Shown here one piece after another: positions 39,695 to 58,790 of a stretch of DNA of 59,288 nucleotides. Each line of letters opens with the position of its first letter. The stretch's first letter is position 1. The stretch is from an uncultured Fibrobacter sp. (GTDB lineage Bacteria; Fibrobacterota; Fibrobacteria; Fibrobacterales; Fibrobacteraceae). The notes below the pieces were generated by a model. That model saw nothing but the letters and a program-made list of their open reading frames with translations. It was not told the origin of the DNA and made no database searches. Made by a program: the position numbers and the translations under genes. Where the stretch lies: NCBI RefSeq assembly GCF_947305105.1, contig NZ_CAMZCS010000019.1, forward strand, positions 1-59,288. Direction: 5' to 3'.

Positions 39695-40318
39695 TTAATC
39701 AAAAGAATCAACCGGACCAAAAACTTCGCAAGCATTCTTTTTAGGAGCATATCCTTCAATGTCAAGACACATTAAGGAATCGTTATGCATCACCCCTCCC
39801 AGTTTTCCATTTTGGCTACGGACACTTTGATAATTTTCCCATTTTATTTTATCAAATTCAAATGGATACGTGTCATTTTCATAATAAAACCTATATATGG
39901 AATTTTTCTCTAAATCAAATAGCTTTCCCTTTCCAATTTCATATAAAATTATTGTATCCGGATAAAAAGCCATTACCTTTATATTTTCCGGATTTTTCGA
40001 CAATCCATCGCAAGATTCGCTGATATAGCAATAATTACCGACAACAGAACCATTTGATGCAGCCCCATATTTAGTATCAAATATTCGTATAAATACATCA
40101 TGATAGCCCTTATATCCTATTTCTCTTCCACTATCCGATACACAAATACGCTCATCATCCAAAAAAAATTGGACACTATCAATCCTAGAGGAAGAAAAGA
40201 AAGCAACTTCAACAGTATCATCGTACTTTACACAATAATTCACGAATGGATCCGTGGTACGACAAGAGAAAAAAAAGATTACACAAAGAAGAATAAAAAG
40301 TAAATCCAATTTTCGCAT
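39695..40318 (-). CDS. cassette lipoprotein A
   Basis: A 207-residue AT-rich lipoprotein gene. Signal MRKLDLLFILLCVIFFFSC, then RTTDPFVNYC. The mature protein has VAFFSSSRIDSVQFFLDDERIC, GYKGYHDVFIRIFD, IKVMAFYPDTIILYEIGKGK and a C-terminal DSLMCLDIEGY. It is a paralogue of the 40476 gene: the signal peptide and upstream DNA are nearly identical, while the mature parts diverge to perhaps 40 percent. A third, more distant relative lies at 47274. Function unknown. Its codon use and base composition differ from neighbouring GC-rich genes, suggesting transfer. Confidence 0.82.
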   Translation of the reverse strand: MRKLDLLFILLCVIFFFSCRTTDPFVNYCVKYDDTVEVAFFSSSRIDSVQFFLDDERICVSDSGREIGYKGYHDVFIRIFDTKYGAASNGSVVGNYCYISESCDGLSKNPENIKVMAFYPDTIILYEIGKGKLFDLEKNSIYRFYYENDTYPFEFDKIKWENYQSVRSQNGKLGGVMHNDSLMCLDIEGYAPKKNACEVFGPVDSFD

Positions 40319-40475: not shown

Positions 40476-41060
40476 TTAACGAGGTTCCCTACACTTGACC
40501 GATCCACCTAATTCATGGTAATCTATACACATCAATGAATTTGAACGCCTCATACCGCCCCATTTATCGCCATCTTCTATTACAAAATCATTAATAAAAT
40601 ATCCATGCTCATCAAAAGGATAAATATCTTTGGTATAAAAGAATCTATAAAGGGCGTTAGTCTCAAGGTTGAACATTCCCCCATATCCAATATCAAATTG
40701 AATAGTCGTATCGGGATAATAAGCAATCACTTTAATATTTCCCAATAAACTTTGCAATTTATCACAATATTTTCCAATAATACAATGACTTGCATAAACA
40801 GAATCATACGATTCCCCATTCCTATGAGTCAATTTATATACATGAGATAAGCCTTTATACCCTTCTTTTCTTTCCCAATCAAACATGCAAATTTGCTCAT
40901 CATTCAAAAAAAAATGAACACTGTCTATTCTATTGGACGAACCAACAATAATTTCAACAGCATCATCATATTTATTACAATGACCATCGGGACCTTCAGT
41001 ACCACAGGAACACACAAAAAAAGCACAAAGAAGAATAAAAAGTAAATCCAATTTTCGCAT
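40476..41060 (-). CDS. cassette lipoprotein B
   Basis: A 194-residue AT-rich lipoprotein. Signal MRKLDLLFILLCAFFVCSC, then GTEGPDGHCNKYDDAVEIIV. It shares with lipoprotein A the segments RIDSVHFFLNDEQICMFD, GYKGLSHVYKL, IKVIAYYPDTTIQFDIGYGG, LYRFFYTKDIYPFD and SLMCIDYHELG. It differs enough that the pair looks like diverged alleles behind an identical leader. AGGAG precedes the ATG. It is preceded by the longer surface-protein fragment at 41073. Function unknown. Confidence 0.82.
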   Translation of the reverse strand: MRKLDLLFILLCAFFVCSCGTEGPDGHCNKYDDAVEIIVGSSNRIDSVHFFLNDEQICMFDWERKEGYKGLSHVYKLTHRNGESYDSVYASHCIIGKYCDKLQSLLGNIKVIAYYPDTTIQFDIGYGGMFNLETNALYRFFYTKDIYPFDEHGYFINDFVIEDGDKWGGMRRSNSLMCIDYHELGGSVKCREPR

Positions 41061-41174
41061 AAATTTCTCCTTTTAAAAGAAATTGACATTATACGCCATT
41101 ATAGATTCGTAAACACTCGGGGAATACGGGGCCCATGTAAACTCGGTATTCTGGTGTAAAACAATCCTTTTTGC
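41024..41174 (-). repeat. duplicated block, copy 2
   Basis: Counterpart of 40282-40431: the signal-peptide codons of lipoprotein B, its ribosome-binding region and the tail of the upstream fragment. Only a handful of differences are seen over about 150 bp. Confidence 0.85.
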
Positions 41175-41492
41175 AAAGATTGTACCATAGTAATAAACTA
41201 TAATATTTTGCGCAGCTTTAATCATACTTTCGGCAACAATTTCCCCGTTCCATTGGAAATTTTTTCCAACATGCAATTCCAGGCTTCCACTCAAAATGTT
41301 CAATTTGGCACCCGACTGGAAATGTAAACTACTGGTTTGCTTCCGTTGGGCTCCATCGACAATCAACTGAGAATACGAATTGAAAATAAATCCGGTATTT
41401 GTTGAACCTATGCCCAAATCCCTAGAAGCAATAGCCGTTTCATTGGTGTTAAACGCCCTATAATTCGTCGTTGTAAAATCTACATCATTCAA
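41073..41492 (-). pseudogene. C-terminal fragment of a surface protein (long copy)
   Basis: An open frame of about 139 codons with only a TTG at its left end, located in the direct repeat, so it is a truncated 3' fragment rather than a full gene. The product is beta-rich (SSLHFQSGAKLNILSGSLEL, FQWNGEIVAESMIKAAQNII, then YYGTIFAKRIVLHQNTEFTW) and ends NVNFF. The GTIFAKRIVLHQ pattern matches the C-terminus of the fragment at 47024 (GSIFAKSIVVHQ) and resembles the end of choice-of-anchor A-type adhesins. A full-length parent gene is not in the window. Confidence 0.7.
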
Positions 41493-41507
41493 AAAGAAGT
41501 AAAAACA
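41486..41507 (+). repeat. direct repeat, right copy
   Basis: Identical 22 bp to 39619-39640, including the galM-type end TTC AAA AAG AAG TAA. With the left copy it brackets the 1.87-kb AT-rich cassette pair. A 10-bp hairpin GTGGACATTT / AAATGTCCAC follows at 41528-41555. Confidence 0.8.
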
Positions 41508-41571
41508 TCTTTTTTCCCCAAAAAGCCGTGGACATTTTCAAAGATAAATGTCCACAGCCGCAAGCGAACGC

Positions 41572-41622: not shown

Positions 41623-41635
41623 TATGGAGAACAGG

Positions 41636-43510
41636 ATGAAAAACATCAAGCTCAAAATGCTGTGCGCGCTTGCGTTTTGCAGTACGGCAATTGCCGCGCC
41701 GGGACTGACCGTAAAAGGGACGGAACTACAATACAACGGGAAAAAAATCTTCTTTTCGGGCGCGAATCTCGCCTGGAGTGACTACAACTCCGACGTGGGC
41801 GATTCCCCACTGAACGAAAACGCCTGGCGCAAGGCCGTCGAAGGCACCCGCGCCGCGGGCGGCAACGCTATCCGTTGGTGGCTTTTCAACAACATGAGCC
41901 AAAGCCCGGAAATCGACCAGACAACTCATCTGGTTTCGGGCCTCAAGGCGAACACCATCAACAACATGAAAAAAGCCCTCGATATCGCCGAAGAATACGG
42001 CGTGATGGTTTCGATGTGCCTTTTCAGCCACAACCTGATGGAACCGAACCAATGGGGACTTTACAACGAAAAGCTCGATATCACAGCGAACACGCAACTG
42101 TTCGAAGATACGGGCACCAAGGCATTCATCGACAATGCACTCATCCCGGTGGTGAAAGCGATTGGCAACCACAAAGCGCTCATGACATGGGAAGTTTTCA
42201 ACGAGCCCGAAGGCATGACCAGTGAAGGTTGGACAACCAAGAAACTCGACAAGGCTACGCTCCAGAAATTTACAAACAAAGTTGCGGCAGCCATCCACAC
42301 GGAGAACCCGGAACTTCTCGTTTCGACAGGCAGCGTAAACATCAAATATCAGGCATGGTGGAACGATGCAGCCCTCGTCGCAGCCGGTGGAGAAGCAAAA
42401 GGCACCCTTGACTTTTTCCAGACACACTATTATCCGTATTACCAGGATGATGCCGTCTCGCCGTTCGTGAATACGGCTGCGCAGATGGCGACCAAGTATG
42501 GCTACGACAACAAGCCGATGATTATCGGCGAGTTCCCGGCAAGCGGCTGGGCTGGCGAAACCTACAAATCCACTTTTGCCGCCAAGACGCAGATTACGAC
42601 AGAAGAATGTTACCGCAAAGCATTTGACGGTGACTACGCAGGCGCTCTCGCATGGCAGTATATAGGCGACAAGACCGAAGCGAATTTCGGCGGTTACACT
42701 TACACCATCGACCCGGCTCTTAAAGCGATGACGGCTCTCGCCGCCACAGAAGAAGCGAGCATCAAGATTAAAGATGCAACGATTGACAACACCACCGGCG
42801 ACGGCAAGATGGCTGTAACCTATGGTGGAGACAATGCGCAAATCGAATACCAGAAAACATTCGACCTGAGCAAGGCCAACACGCTGTCTTTTGAAGCAAA
42901 AAATAACGGAGCCACAGCCGCCCAGCTGAACCTGATTTTCAAGCTCACGGATGCATGGACATGGACCGAAGTCGAAGGCCCCTGCGAAGTGCCCGCCGGA
43001 GAAAAGAAGACTTGCACTTTTGATATTTCGAGCCACGCCGACCGCAACAAGACTTTGAGTACGGTCATCGCAAACTACGCAGCGGGTTACACAGGCACCA
43101 TTCTTTACGACAACTTTATCGCCGGTACGGACACACTTTGGAATTTCAATACCGACAAGTACGACGCATTTAGCCGCGGTTTCGAAAACACCGAAGAAAT
43201 GATTCCCGAAATCAAAATTGTCTACGACGACACTTACGAAAGCGGAACAACACGATATTTCCGTATTGCGAACAACATTCATTCCTCCGTCAAAGTCAAC
43301 GCCAACACAATCTCCCTTGTCACAAGTACGGCAGGAATACTGAACGTGGATATTTTCGGCATGAACGGCCTGCACGTCGCCACCCTGCACAGGGGAGCAA
43401 CAGCAGCCGGCAACCACACATTCAGCCTCACCGGAATCCGGAGCGGACACTACCTCCTACGCGTCAAGGGTACCGGAATCGCAGCCACGCAGCCGATTCG
43501 GTTGAAGTAG
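41636..43510 (+). CDS. secreted glycoside hydrolase family 5 enzyme
   Basis: A 624-residue exported GH5 enzyme, a likely beta-mannanase or endoglucanase. The signal peptide MKNIKLKMLCALAFCSTAIAA is followed by the TIM barrel: FFSGANLAWSDYNSD, AGGNAIRWWLFNN, the acid/base Glu in TWEVFNEPEG, FFQTHYYPYY, and the nucleophile Glu in MIIGEFPASGW. A beta-sandwich module lies at about residues 380-500 (carbohydrate-binding-like: LSFEAKNNGATAAQLNLIF). The C-terminal Por/T9SS-like domain ends GHYLLRVKGTG...IRLK. ATG 41636 is chosen over 41624 because GGAG is 6 nt upstream and it starts the signal peptide. A strong terminator follows. GH5 subfamily not determined. Confidence 0.9.
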   Translation: MKNIKLKMLCALAFCSTAIAAPGLTVKGTELQYNGKKIFFSGANLAWSDYNSDVGDSPLNENAWRKAVEGTRAAGGNAIRWWLFNNMSQSPEIDQTTHLVSGLKANTINNMKKALDIAEEYGVMVSMCLFSHNLMEPNQWGLYNEKLDITANTQLFEDTGTKAFIDNALIPVVKAIGNHKALMTWEVFNEPEGMTSEGWTTKKLDKATLQKFTNKVAAAIHTENPELLVSTGSVNIKYQAWWNDAALVAAGGEAKGTLDFFQTHYYPYYQDDAVSPFVNTAAQMATKYGYDNKPMIIGEFPASGWAGETYKSTFAAKTQITTEECYRKAFDGDYAGALAWQYIGDKTEANFGGYTYTIDPALKAMTALAATEEASIKIKDATIDNTTGDGKMAVTYGGDNAQIEYQKTFDLSKANTLSFEAKNNGATAAQLNLIFKLTDAWTWTEVEGPCEVPAGEKKTCTFDISSHADRNKTLSTVIANYAAGYTGTILYDNFIAGTDTLWNFNTDKYDAFSRGFENTEEMIPEIKIVYDDTYESGTTRYFRIANNIHSSVKVNANTISLVTSTAGILNVDIFGMNGLHVATLHRGATAAGNHTFSLTGIRSGHYLLRVKGTGIAATQPIRLK

Positions 43511-46528: not shown

Positions 46529-47023
46529 ATGGCACAGAACGATTCAGACAATGTCAAACTCCACGCTACGCAAACGTTTGCGGCTCTCGGCAACAAGTTC
46601 AGCAAGTTGCCCCGTTCAAAGCGTTTTATCATCATTGGCGCAGTAGCCCTGTTCATTTACATTCTCGGATTCATGACTTGCAGTTTCATGAACAACGTCC
46701 CGAACGAAGGCATCATCGAGAAAGTGGCCGCCCTCCCCGACGCGAAGAACAAGTGCAAGTTCCGCTACGACCGTGCCCTCGAATACGCCATCATGCACGA
46801 ATGCGTCTTTGCCAAGGGAACTCCCGGCAACGGCTCCAAGCTTGTGCAGCGCGTGAACTACTGCACCTGCGCCCTCGAAGGCGTGCAGATGAAGAAGCCG
46901 TACCAGAAGATGTTCGAGAACAACCTCGTGGACTTCACGTTCAAGATCCGCGAAGAGAACCTCTGCAACGAAGAAAAGAACATCCCGACGCTGGAAGCCG
47001 AAGGCGACCAGGGCGGGAACTAA
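46529..47023 (+). CDS. hypothetical single-pass membrane protein
   Basis: A 164-residue protein with a short cytoplasmic N-terminus (LPRSKR) and one membrane helix at about residues 34-52 (FIIIGAVALFIYILGFMTC). The periplasmic C-terminal domain is rich in Cys (CKFRYDRALEYAIMHECVF, then VNYCTCALEG), which suggests disulfides. No known family is recognised. It has its own promoter-like box but follows hpt closely, so it may also be read from that operon. The stop codon is the exact left edge of an AT-rich cassette. Confidence 0.75.
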   Translation: MAQNDSDNVKLHATQTFAALGNKFSKLPRSKRFIIIGAVALFIYILGFMTCSFMNNVPNEGIIEKVAALPDAKNKCKFRYDRALEYAIMHECVFAKGTPGNGSKLVQRVNYCTCALEGVQMKKPYQKMFENNLVDFTFKIREENLCNEEKNIPTLEAEGDQGGN

Positions 47024-47262
47024 ACCCGAATGCGAACGGGATTCATGTGCAAACCGACTTTGCAGGAACGATTGTAGCACCGAATGCAGAGGTCGTTGTT
47101 GGCCAAGCCGGAAAAAACTTCTATGGATCTATCTTCGCCAAGAGCATTGTGGTTCACCAATACACGAAAGTCACCTGGGTTCCGTTCATTCCCGTTCAAA
47201 TGAATGGTGTAGTGGCACACATTGACAACCACGAACCTTTACGGTATTCTGTTGTTTTCTAG
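47024..47262 (+). pseudogene. C-terminal fragment of a surface protein
   Basis: Starts immediately after the stop of the preceding gene and is open without its own start: NPNANGIHVQTDFAGTIVAP, NAEVVVGQAGKNFYGSIFAK, SIVVHQYTKVTWVPF and so on, ending SVVF. The GTIVAPNAEVVVGQ...FYGSIFAKSIVVH pattern is that of choice-of-anchor A adhesin-type domains and matches the fragments at 41073 and 40330. It is the third such orphan tail, again directly followed by a lipoprotein gene. Confidence 0.7.
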
Positions 47263-47273
47263 GACGGCAATCT

Positions 47274-47906
47274 ATGTTTTCCCGCTTTATTTATTTTTCC
47301 TTATTCATTGTTCTTTTAGGATGCGCCCCTTATGAGGATCATTCAGTATATTTTCCCGCTATTCGGATAAACTTTATGTCCACATCTGATGTCGATAGTG
47401 TTCATTTTTATTTGAATAATGAACAGGTGTGTTTTGAAAAGCCTATTCTTTTTGAAGGCGACTGTAAAAATTGTCTAGAAGCAAAAGGATATACGAGTGA
47501 ATACGCGATATGCAAAACATCAACCGAAGACAGCAATTATATATTCACGCATCGCGACACAGAAAAAGAGAAGCAATGCGTCCAATCGGAAAATTTTCTT
47601 AAATGGGTTAATTATGAATGTTTTGTGAGTGAAAAGCATTATGGGAAATCATTGGATTCATTGACGTTCCAAGCACAAATTTTCTCTAATGAATCAGTGA
47701 AGACCATACAGCCAAGTATTATTTTTCATAGTGGAAATCGTTATAATATAATGCTAGAACAAGATTCTGCACAGTGGCTCAATCACATGGATGACGTATT
47801 TTTTGACCTCTTTGGCTTAGCAGGATCATGGCTGTGGGAGGGATGCTCCGACGGCTTTTGCGTGGCAACCATTCCGATGAGAGAAGGAGAAGGCTACTAC
47901 GAATGA
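47274..47906 (+). CDS. cassette lipoprotein C
   Basis: A 210-residue AT-rich lipoprotein: signal MFSRFIYFSLFIVLLGC with the Cys at residue 17. It contains SDVDSVHFYLNNEQVCFE, clearly related to RIDSVHFFLNDEQICMFD of lipoprotein B. It is otherwise divergent, with extra Cys (EGDCKNCLEAKGY) and a Trp-rich C-terminus (WLNHMDDVFFDLFGLAGSWL). It follows an orphan surface-protein tail by 11 bp, as in the other two cassettes. Function unknown. The base composition suggests recent acquisition. Confidence 0.8.
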   Translation: MFSRFIYFSLFIVLLGCAPYEDHSVYFPAIRINFMSTSDVDSVHFYLNNEQVCFEKPILFEGDCKNCLEAKGYTSEYAICKTSTEDSNYIFTHRDTEKEKQCVQSENFLKWVNYECFVSEKHYGKSLDSLTFQAQIFSNESVKTIQPSIIFHSGNRYNIMLEQDSAQWLNHMDDVFFDLFGLAGSWLWEGCSDGFCVATIPMREGEGYYE

Positions 47907-47922: not shown

Positions 47923-48966
47923 TTACAATATCAGCATTCCGTCGCCGTAGCTGAACAGTTTCAGCTTGTTTTCGACGGCCATTTTGTACGCGGCCAGCGT
48001 ATTTTCGCGCCCGTAGAACGCCGAGACAAGCAGGATGAGCGAACTCTTGGGCCAATGGAAATTGGTGAGGAGTCCGTCCACAATCTTGTAGCGGTAGCCG
48101 GGGTAGAAGAACGCATGCGTCACGCCCGTCTGCGCTTTCACGATTCCGTTCGCATCGGCAATTGTTTCGACAACGCGGGTACTCGTCGTCCCGACCGTCA
48201 CGATGCGGCCACCTTCGCGCTTGGCCTTGTTGATGATTTCGGCGTTTTCCTTCGTGAGTTCGTAATGTTCGCCGTGCATCTTGTGCTGGGTAAAGTCTTC
48301 GACCGAGATGTTCTGGAAGGTGCCGGGGCCCACGTGCAGAGTCACTTCGGCCACGTACACGCCCCTTGCCTTGAGGTCTTCGAGCATTTGCTCGCTAAAG
48401 TGCAAACTCGCCGTCGGGGCGGCCACCGCGCCGGAATATTTCGCGAAAATCGTCTGGTAAGCCTTCTTGTCGTCTTCGTCGTCGGGGCGGTTGATGTACG
48501 GCGGCAGCGGGACATGTCCCTCACGGTTCATCACCGACTCGAGTTCCACCGGAGTCACCGCAAAGCGCAGCACGCGGGCCCCGTCTTCACGGACGTCTTC
48601 GACGACTGTCTTCACACCCGCGATTTCGAGTTCGCGGCCGACCTTGAAAGCCTTACCCGGGCGCACCTGCGCCTCATAGCGGGCGGAGCCGTCTTCGGCG
48701 GGAATCAGCGACTGCACCAGAAGCGTCTCGACCTCGCCGCCATGCAACGTGTGGCCATACAACCTCGCGGGAATCACCTTGGTATTGTTCACCACCAAGC
48801 AATCGCCGGGATTGAACAAGTCGACAATCTCCGGAGCCTTGAGGATGCGCCTCTCGCCACCGTTCTTGGGGCAATATAGAATGTGGGTCTTGCCCTTCCC
48901 TGCCGTGCGGCTCGCAATCAGCTCTGGCGGGAATTCAAAATTGTAGTCAGAAAGCTTGTGTTCCAT
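47923..48966 (-). CDS. queA: tRNA preQ1(34) S-adenosylmethionine ribosyltransferase-isomerase
   Basis: Transfers and isomerises the ribosyl part of SAM onto preQ1 in tRNA, giving epoxyqueuosine. The 347-residue protein has the family N-terminus DYNFEFPPELIAS, the VVNNTKVIPARLYG motif, LPPYINRPDDEDDKKAYQT, and the C-terminal TNFHWPKSSLILLVSAF. It begins 1 bp after the WYL regulator stop, so the two are cotranscribed. It is the third queuosine biosynthesis enzyme in the window. An AT-rich cassette lies directly past its end. Confidence 0.96.
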   Translation of the reverse strand: MEHKLSDYNFEFPPELIASRTAGKGKTHILYCPKNGGERRILKAPEIVDLFNPGDCLVVNNTKVIPARLYGHTLHGGEVETLLVQSLIPAEDGSARYEAQVRPGKAFKVGRELEIAGVKTVVEDVREDGARVLRFAVTPVELESVMNREGHVPLPPYINRPDDEDDKKAYQTIFAKYSGAVAAPTASLHFSEQMLEDLKARGVYVAEVTLHVGPGTFQNISVEDFTQHKMHGEHYELTKENAEIINKAKREGGRIVTVGTTSTRVVETIADANGIVKAQTGVTHAFFYPGYRYKIVDGLLTNFHWPKSSLILLVSAFYGRENTLAAYKMAVENKLKLFSYGDGMLIL

Positions 48967-57258: not shown

Positions 57259-57268
57259 TGTTATGCCT

Positions 57269-57835
57269 ATGGAAAATTATATAGCTATTTCAACGCTGAA
57301 CGATTTTATTTTCTGCCCGTATTCCATATATTTGCACAACGTCTATATGGAATCAGACGAATCTATGTATCACGCCACACCGCAAATGCAAGGCAAAATC
57401 GCACACAAAGGTATTGATCAAAAAACCTACAGTTCTAAGAAAGATGACATCACTTCTTTACCTGTTTTTAGTGAAAAATACGGATTGATAGGAAAAATTG
57501 ATTTATTAAAGCAAAAAGAACATCTTTTAATAGAGCGAAAATATCAGTTGAAGCGAATTTTTCAAGGGCAAATATATCAGTTATGGGCTCAATACTTTTG
57601 CCTTACTGAAATGGGTTACGAAGTACAGAAGCTTTCATTTTACGAAATTTCAACAAACAAGATGATTCCCGTAGAATTACCGACCGAAACCCAAATAGAG
57701 GAATTTGAAAATTTTATCAAGACCTTTAAAAATTACGATCCAGCATCACCAATAACAGTGAATCCAAGCAAATGTAAACATTGCATATACAACAACTTAT
57801 GCGACAAAACGGAGGTTTCAAATGTTTACGGCTAA
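57269..57835 (+). CDS. cas4: Cas4 nuclease of the adaptation module
   Basis: PD-(D/E)xK-type iron-sulfur nuclease that helps trim and orient new spacers. The 188-residue protein has the first cluster Cys in DFIFCPYSIYLH, the catalytic GLIGKIDLL (Asp) and LLIERKYQLK (ExK), a QLWAQYFCLTEMGY helix, and the C-terminal Cys set KCKHCIYNNLCD. ATG 57269 (MENYIAIS) is preferred; an in-frame ATG at 57263 is 6 bp upstream. Its end overlaps cas1 by 14 bp, so the adaptation genes are tightly coupled. Confidence 0.94.
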   Translation: MENYIAISTLNDFIFCPYSIYLHNVYMESDESMYHATPQMQGKIAHKGIDQKTYSSKKDDITSLPVFSEKYGLIGKIDLLKQKEHLLIERKYQLKRIFQGQIYQLWAQYFCLTEMGYEVQKLSFYEISTNKMIPVELPTETQIEEFENFIKTFKNYDPASPITVNPSKCKHCIYNNLCDKTEVSNVYG

Positions 57836-58790
57836 AGATATTGAGTGTCGCAGTATTTTTATCATCAACTGCCTAAAGGATCGTAATTTGCGAGTTTCTT
57901 CAGGAGAATTACTCTTGGAAGACACTGAAGAAAAGAGAACTCTCACCAAGTTCCCGTTTCAAAAAATACTCGCACTTTTTATCATTGGCCCAATTACAAT
58001 AACAACGCCACTACTCGAAAAATGCAAAAAATTTGATGTCGCACTAGTTGTCATGAAAGGTAACTTAAGACCCGTTTTCTTTTGGGCAAATCATGCTGAA
58101 GCAAATTTCTTATTGCACCAAAAACAGTATTTCTTTGAAAAAACGGACATATCCTTCGCAAAAGTTATCGTGCGAAACAAAATTCTCAATCAGGAATCTG
58201 TACTTGGAAAAATTCGGAAGAAAAATGAAAAAATTGACAAAGCCAAACAACTATGTTTTGACTACTTAGAAAAACTTTCTGATGTCCAAGAATATGAGAA
58301 ATTAATGGGTATAGAAGGCTATGTTTCCAAAATATTTTTCGAAGCCTATTTCGCAGAATACGAATGGATTGCCCGGATGCCACGTGCAAAAAATGATACA
58401 ACAAATGCAGTCTTAGATATCGGATACACCATTCTGTTCAACTTTATTGAGGTCTTTCTAAGGCTTTTCGGGTTCGATCCCTATGTGGGAGTATATCACC
58501 GTTTATGGTTTAAGCGGAAATCTTTAGTCTGTGATGTAATGGAGCCGTTCCGTTGCATTATTGATATGAGAGTTCGAAAAGCCCTAAATCTCGGACAAAT
58601 AAAAAAAGAAGATTTTAATTTTGTAAAAGGAGAATATTTGCTGAAATTCGAAAAATATTCAGAATATTCAACTCTATTCTTGCAAGACCTTGTTGATAAA
58701 AAAATAGAAATCTTTAAATTCATCCAATCATATTATAGGGCTTTCATGAAAGGCAGCTCAGATTTAATTATCCCCTTTTTATTGGAGTAA
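57822..58790 (+). CDS. cas1: Cas1 integrase
   Basis: Metal-dependent integrase that inserts spacers with Cas2. The 322-residue protein has the N-terminal beta domain (ILALFIIGPITITTPLLEKC) and the C-terminal helical domain. The catalytic Glu is in LMGIEGYVSKIFF, His in GVYHRLWFKRKS, and the acidic pair in VCDVMEPFRCIIDMRV. These are the four expected active-site regions. It overlaps cas4 by 14 bp and precedes cas2 by 4 bp. Confidence 0.95.
   Translation: MFTAKDIECRSIFIINCLKDRNLRVSSGELLLEDTEEKRTLTKFPFQKILALFIIGPITITTPLLEKCKKFDVALVVMKGNLRPVFFWANHAEANFLLHQKQYFFEKTDISFAKVIVRNKILNQESVLGKIRKKNEKIDKAKQLCFDYLEKLSDVQEYEKLMGIEGYVSKIFFEAYFAEYEWIARMPRAKNDTTNAVLDIGYTILFNFIEVFLRLFGFDPYVGVYHRLWFKRKSLVCDVMEPFRCIIDMRVRKALNLGQIKKEDFNFVKGEYLLKFEKYSEYSTLFLQDLVDKKIEIFKFIQSYYRAFMKGSSDLIIPFLLE

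Follow-up and report, generated by a model that had tools for sequence, protein, structure and literature searches.

Orphan peptidase-adhesin tails and their partner lipoprotein genes in Fibrobacter: remnants of a two-gene operon and candidate immunity-like cassettes

Background

Orphan rhs-CT/rhsI modules of Salmonella consist of displaced 3' fragments accompanied by a partner gene (PMC3967940). Arrays of orphan immunity genes are known from Bacteroidales as rAID systems (PMC12247911), and in Bacteroides fragilis the Bfp proteases are paired with Bfi inhibitors, some of which are predicted lipoproteins (PMC2873492).

The locus described here lies in a 59,288-nucleotide stretch of DNA from an uncultured Fibrobacter sp. 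(contig NZ_CAMZCS010000019.1), the whole of which was analysed and is called the window below. Fibrobacter plays a keystone role in the breakdown of fibre in herbivore guts; a literature search found no comparable antagonism or kin-recognition system for this genus. A first-pass annotation of the window had pointed out three C-terminal protein fragments, each followed by a small lipoprotein gene, had likened them to displacement arrays of polymorphic toxin and immunity genes, and had offered adhesin tips with partner lipoproteins as the alternative. A scan of GTDB contigs gave seven matches, every one a Fibrobacter MAG, and we compared the locus with 80 Fibrobacter genomes, all of them drafts and some incomplete. 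As in polymorphic toxin systems, the displaced 3' fragments mostly stand next to a small gene for a partner (27 of the 30 orphan tails); a toxin domain that varies at the C-terminus of an otherwise conserved protein was not found.

Results

The orphan unit at 47 kb

The unit at 47 kb (site B) and its surroundings comprise the following features.

46529..47023, plus strand: conserved host gene, 164 aa, Fibrobacter-wide; the site B unit is inserted at its 3' end
47005..47020, plus strand: left copy of the site B target duplication, CGACCAGGGCGGGAAC
47024..47262, plus strand: orphan C-terminal remnant of a peptidase-adhesin gene (pAdhesive_15 end)
47222..47250, plus strand: promoter-like TTGACA-17-TATTCT at the tail end, weak, consensus only
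47274..47906, plus strand: partner lipoprotein, site B allele, 210 aa (open reading frame; structure model)
47923..48966, minus strand: queA-like flanking gene, convergent with the unit (own sequence reading)

Both the tail behind the stop of the 46529 gene and the lipoprotein gene lie where the first-pass annotation had placed them. The reading frame of the tail (47026-47262, 78 codons, GSIFAKSIVVHQ) has neither a start codon nor a signal peptide of its own and runs out of frame into the preceding 46529 gene, which rules out a stand-alone gene. Profile searches bore out the claim that the fragment is more than a chance resemblance: it matched Pfam pAdhesive_15 (PF20597) with an E value of 2.9e-6 and 27.8 bits, above the curated cut-off of 23.8, and TIGR04215 (choice_anch_A) with an E value of 1.5e-6 and 28.2 bits, just below the cut-off of 29. 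The tail is the end of an adhesive-type domain, in agreement with the adhesin alternative of the same annotation. The lipoprotein gene is a complete reading frame with signal peptide and lipobox (VLLGC; DSVHFYLNNEQVC). Some family-conserved Cys residues, at the start of the mature part and at the C-terminus, are missing from its product, as they are in G013.

The TAA that now stops the 46529 gene (47021-47023) came with the insert, as its first three nucleotides; in insert-free relatives the gene ends in GGG-AAC-AAC-TAA/TAG. No insert is present at site B in G031, G074, G090 and G018, and the downstream queA-like gene is conserved in the relatives with an empty site. In G008 the insert is located between two 16-bp copies of CGACCAGGGCGGGAAC, with which the upstream gene ends; the window genome and G013 have lost the right one. 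The promoter-like sequence is also kept in G008 and G013. Retention of the tail as a promoter carrier was rejected, promoter matches being present in 5 of 61 units genus-wide versus 5.6 expected.

Two further units at site A

The other two tail and lipoprotein units of the first-pass annotation also proved real. They lie at 39.7-41.5 kb (site A), all on the minus strand.

41486..41526: right copy of a ~42-bp imperfect direct repeat, 3' end of an aldose-epimerase-like gene; flanks the site A insert
41073..41492, minus strand: orphan tail 1, 139 aa, adhesin 3' remnant with a full-length counterpart in G074
40476..41060, minus strand: partner lipoprotein 2, 194 aa
40333..40512, minus strand: degenerate tail 2 remnant with two TAG
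39695..40318, minus strand: partner lipoprotein 1, 207 aa
39619..39660: left counterpart of the same ~42-bp imperfect repeat, located at the end of the epimerase-like gene

G031, G013, G008 and G018 have no insert at site A. Tail 1 has suffered an internal in-frame deletion of 33 codons, and the last ~95 bp of degenerate tail 2 together with the following lipoprotein leader are 92-98% identical to site A unit 1. Lipoprotein 2 shares 81% amino acid identity with the partner of the G074 full-length gene and 48% with lipoprotein 1. Searched as degenerate DNA, the tail motif gave three matches in the window versus 0.11 expected; one of the three falls within a Cas1-like gene by chance. By our own sequence reading, Cas4-like and Cas1-like genes occupy positions 57263-58790, so that the window probably ends on its right side in a CRISPR-Cas locus.

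Neither of the two inserts contains anything but tails and lipoproteins; a transposase or integrase is absent from both. Direct repeats of at least 13 bp flank 6 of 29 orphan units, as compared with 1.7% of swapped flanks; their lengths range from 15 to 58 bp, with two of 58 bp. These two are exact repeats, derived in one case (L157, G082:C3) from the 5' end of the downstream gene and in the other (L155, G069:C22) from the end of a ribulose-phosphate-epimerase-like gene. The simplest guess is insertion with short duplications by a route not involving a transposase; the varying repeat lengths do not point to a particular mechanism.

The source operon

Across Fibrobacter the source locus is a two-gene operon, in which gene 1 encodes a peptidase-adhesin and gene 2, a few nucleotides downstream, a variable partner. 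In the 80 genomes the full-length product of gene 1 is a secreted protein of ~900-1200 aa, built of an N-terminal domain, a papain-like (C39/C70-like) cysteine-peptidase domain, TSP3/EF-hand repeats and a C-terminal pAdhesive_15/DUF7305 domain, in this order. For the middle region, one iterated profile matched 46 of 46 proteins of at least 850 aa. The peptidase-like region contains the motifs RCW...LNHYYGGNLTQDEI, H-x-M and N-x-DN-x-G, and the presumed catalytic residues occur in order in the aligned members (Cys 30/31, His 31/31, Asn 30/30). In one full-length protein (L191, G091:C59) the presumed catalytic Cys position is replaced (RNWIVSA versus RCW) and the His is kept. Pfam Peptidase_C39_2 matched 7 of 15 segments, with a best E value of 1.4e-5 and displayed scores below the curated cut-off, and Peptidase_C70 matched 5 of 15 segments of full-length proteins. 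Conservation of these residues suggests that the full-length protein is an active peptidase. The C-terminal blocks are about as conserved as the rest of the full-length protein, or more so, and the G074 protein scored 26.8 bits with pAdhesive_15 (curated cut-off 23.8).

In G026, G072, G080 and G074 (two loci), full-length genes of 1095-1218 codons end in the same tail, and a gene of this lipoprotein family comes directly after them. Because these genes end in such a tail plus lipoprotein, the window tails are recognized as 3' remnants of full-length genes, and the orphan unit of tail and partner as a derivative of the two-gene operon. DNA identity to the G074 operon is 92-98% over most of the site A tail and the 5' half of the lipoprotein 2 gene, and drops to 72-82% deeper in this gene. 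A second scrap of tail is present in G074 as well, along with the same terminator; lipoprotein 1 is absent there. In G074 (L110, G074:C1) the operon adjoins an amylase-like gene, and the GH5-like gene of the window (41624-43510) is missing at the corresponding position. The two full-length genes of the window genome itself (L066 and L067, on contigs C27 and C1) were ruled out as the source of the units by their other partner types. They encode a papain-like domain and an adhesive C-terminus, and their secreted partners end in FD.NG..RFENG; at the C27 locus a second partner-like gene lies upstream of the adhesin.

Among the full-length genes, 37 of 50 are followed by a partner start at a distance of at most 60 nt; among the orphan tails, 27 of 30 are. 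Some partner starts overlap the adhesin stop. Partners belong to at least three unrelated families, namely secreted FDxNG proteins (44 members), lipoproteins (9) and PDZ-containing proteins (6), and there are single cases besides. The PDZ partners (genes downstream of L178, L175 and L177) adjoin a subset of the peptidase-adhesins; the one that was scanned has a FlgD-like C-terminal domain. In 60 of 65 cases a tail and its nearest relative are accompanied by partners of one family (shuffled mean 32, maximum 45), an agreement to which shared descent contributes.

Tails, N-termini and the exchange of lipoprotein alleles

Tails numbered 97, in 48 of the 80 genomes, and 42 of them had no N-terminus within 5 kb upstream. 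Short reading frames of at most 438 aa made up 25 of these 42; the remaining ones were long proteins, mostly with another N-terminus. In the remnants only the last 40-140 residues of the adhesive domain are left beside the partner gene. Among the 30 orphan reading frames examined in detail, 9 had the N-terminus upstream, most of these being genes broken in place. N-termini devoid of a tail were found in only 3 of 57 cases, two of them at contig ends. With so few stray N-termini and so many short tails, it must therefore be the 3' end with its partner that survives or moves. The near-absence of stray N-termini rules out symmetric neutral decay, although selection on the partner alone could cause the same pattern.

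The tail and the lipoprotein have different fates. At site B, identity between G000 and G008 is about 90-98% in the flanking gene, in the tail outside a 90-bp deletion of G008, in the ribosome-binding site and in the leader, and 85-95% in the downstream flank, whereas the mature lipoproteins share about 40-45%. The tandem units of site A are 92-98% identical for ~180 bp and 45-70% thereafter; in the array of G029 leaders are 64-90% alike and most bodies 12-65%. This 90-bp internal deletion has affected the tails of both G008 and G013, and the third tail of the window contains stops. These comparisons show that strains have swapped the mature lipoprotein within flanks that are conserved, and that the tail is decaying.

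The lipoprotein family

Near full-length lipoprotein copies were found 45 times in 27 of the 80 genomes, 44 of them free of stops, and the family extends to other genera of the same taxonomic family. Comparison of the two match lists showed that 34 of the 45 copies are without any tail. The first-pass annotation had proposed to ask whether tail and lipoprotein are always paired, wide unpairedness counting against its reading: the tails are indeed nearly always paired, with several unrelated partner families, but the lipoproteins mostly stand free. Up to seven paralogous lipoproteins form tail-less head-to-tail arrays (L060, G029:C9:76062-80518; L201/L205, Fibrobacter sp. UBA7003), in which adjacent copies have leader and unit boundaries in common. 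For most comparable lipoprotein pairs dN/dS was 0.13-0.32, and for pairs including free-standing copies 0.13-0.26. The value for lipoprotein 2 and the G074 partner was 0.67, which could reflect relaxed selection.

Structure prediction for the lipoprotein gave a beta-sandwich (mean pLDDT 77-80) that has no clear relative. Foldseek returned nothing at E values up to 0.001 for the model, and the top VIA-align matches were FimA/Mfa-like adhesion proteins of Bacteroidales, with Z scores of 5.3 and 5.9, too low to tell true relatives from proteins that share a common fold. Sequence searches detected no homology to known inhibitor or immunity families; chagasin, staphostatin and Spi gave no sequence match, and the fold comparison showed no more than a generic beta-sandwich. 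A scan of viral contigs with lipoprotein 2 yielded no relative, and phage carriage of the lipoprotein was rejected on this ground. A known anti-phage defence family was likewise rejected, the only hit being a weak chance match to Csn2.

Discussion

The reading that we prefer, with a probability of roughly 0.45, is that the lipoprotein is an orphan immunity or inhibitor-like partner of a secreted peptidase-adhesin. The fragment that came to lie between other genes, duplicating a short stretch of the target, consists of the 3' end of gene 1 and an intact gene 2. The tail is a scar and would be without function; the part retained is the lipoprotein. Acting without the adhesin at the cell surface or in the envelope, the lipoprotein would shield the cell from the peptidase-adhesins of relatives, and we propose that this protection is why additional alleles and arrays are acquired and maintained. 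By analogy with the rAID arrays and the Bfp/Bfi pairs, a partner that is gained and kept without the adhesin, in divergent alleles and in arrays, is what would be expected of immunity or inhibitor genes. It is a bolder and somewhat doubtful extension of the same idea that Fibrobacter possesses a new antagonism system, in which giant secreted papain-like peptidase-adhesins are each coupled to a partner from one of several unrelated, fast-changing families, and these partners spread in the genus as self-sufficient immunity cassettes into gene ends, together with a scrap of the effector gene.

The partner may instead be an accessory of the adhesin, such as a chaperone, an anchor or a receptor of the C-terminal domain, the orphans being passive leftovers of partly deleted or transferred operons. 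We consider this unlikely, but it has several observations on its side. The partner start directly adjoins or overlaps the adhesin stop, the agreement between tail and partner family also fits physical contact between the two, and several orphan cases are plain frameshifted genes whose N-terminus is still upstream. Moreover, the PDZ or secreted partners of the other classes are as compatible with an accessory role as with immunity. An accessory, however, should not persist, form arrays of up to seven or newly insert without its adhesin, yet the free-standing majority of the lipoproteins is nearly all intact and stray N-termini are almost missing.

Less probable still is that the lipoproteins are a variable family of surface antigens or phage receptors, for which tail and leader serve as a recombination arm in body swaps between loci. 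A conserved 5' arm joined to a divergent body, as seen in the window units and between G008 and G000, is what this explanation predicts, and the arrays of G061 and G029 also combine a conserved 5' boundary or leader with divergent bodies, their 3' ends being partly conserved too. On the other hand, there are few copies per genome, no recombinase was seen beside the units, the viral scan was empty, and the shared arm may be plain common descent. A classical polymorphic toxin module, with the tail as toxic tip and the lipoprotein as antidote, resembles the orphan rhs-CT/rhsI modules (PMC3967940) in its displaced 3' ends and linked small genes, but is very improbable, since the tail is a conserved adhesive-domain end that matches adhesive domains only, no toxin family, and decays in the orphans. 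From the displacement array of the first-pass annotation there remain the displaced C-terminal fragments joined to a partner, their tandem arrangement and the varying partner; the toxic tip has to be given up, variation residing in the body of the partner.

If the orphan immunity reading is true, a ready set of peptidase-adhesin and partner pairs with natural allele swaps is at hand. Should the partner turn out to be an accessory, the adhesin would still merit description, as a protein with a conserved papain-like domain and swappable partners that is present in more than half of the genomes.

Comparison with known systems

The Fibrobacter units are like orphan rhs-CT/rhsI and cdiA-CT/cdiI modules in being 3' fragments of a gene for a large secreted protein together with a small gene, without start or export signals, sometimes in tandem, and with full-length versions in other strains. 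They differ in that the fragment is a conserved, decaying adhesive end instead of a variable toxin tip, in that the body of the partner varies, and in that the units also occur at unrelated loci with target duplications. With the surface proteins of the pAdhesive_15, choice-of-anchor A and DUF7305 type the tail shares the domain type, but only the end of the domain remains.

As in SpeB-Spi, staphopain-staphostatin and Bfp-Bfi, a papain-like protease gene is directly followed by a small gene. In contrast to these pairs, the Fibrobacter peptidase belongs to the C39/C70-like branch and sits inside a giant adhesin, and the partner has no sequence match to a known inhibitor family.

The arrays of divergent, intact small genes without an effector (the lipoproteins of G029 and of UBA7003/G068) resemble those of the rAID systems; no obvious recombinase was seen by eye among the reading frames surrounding the G029 array. 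Unlike in rAID, immunity is here a proposed role, and the Fibrobacter units carry tail scars that betray their origin. Such scars allow orphan partners to be traced to the class of their effector, a link that is usually lost in orphan immunity arrays.
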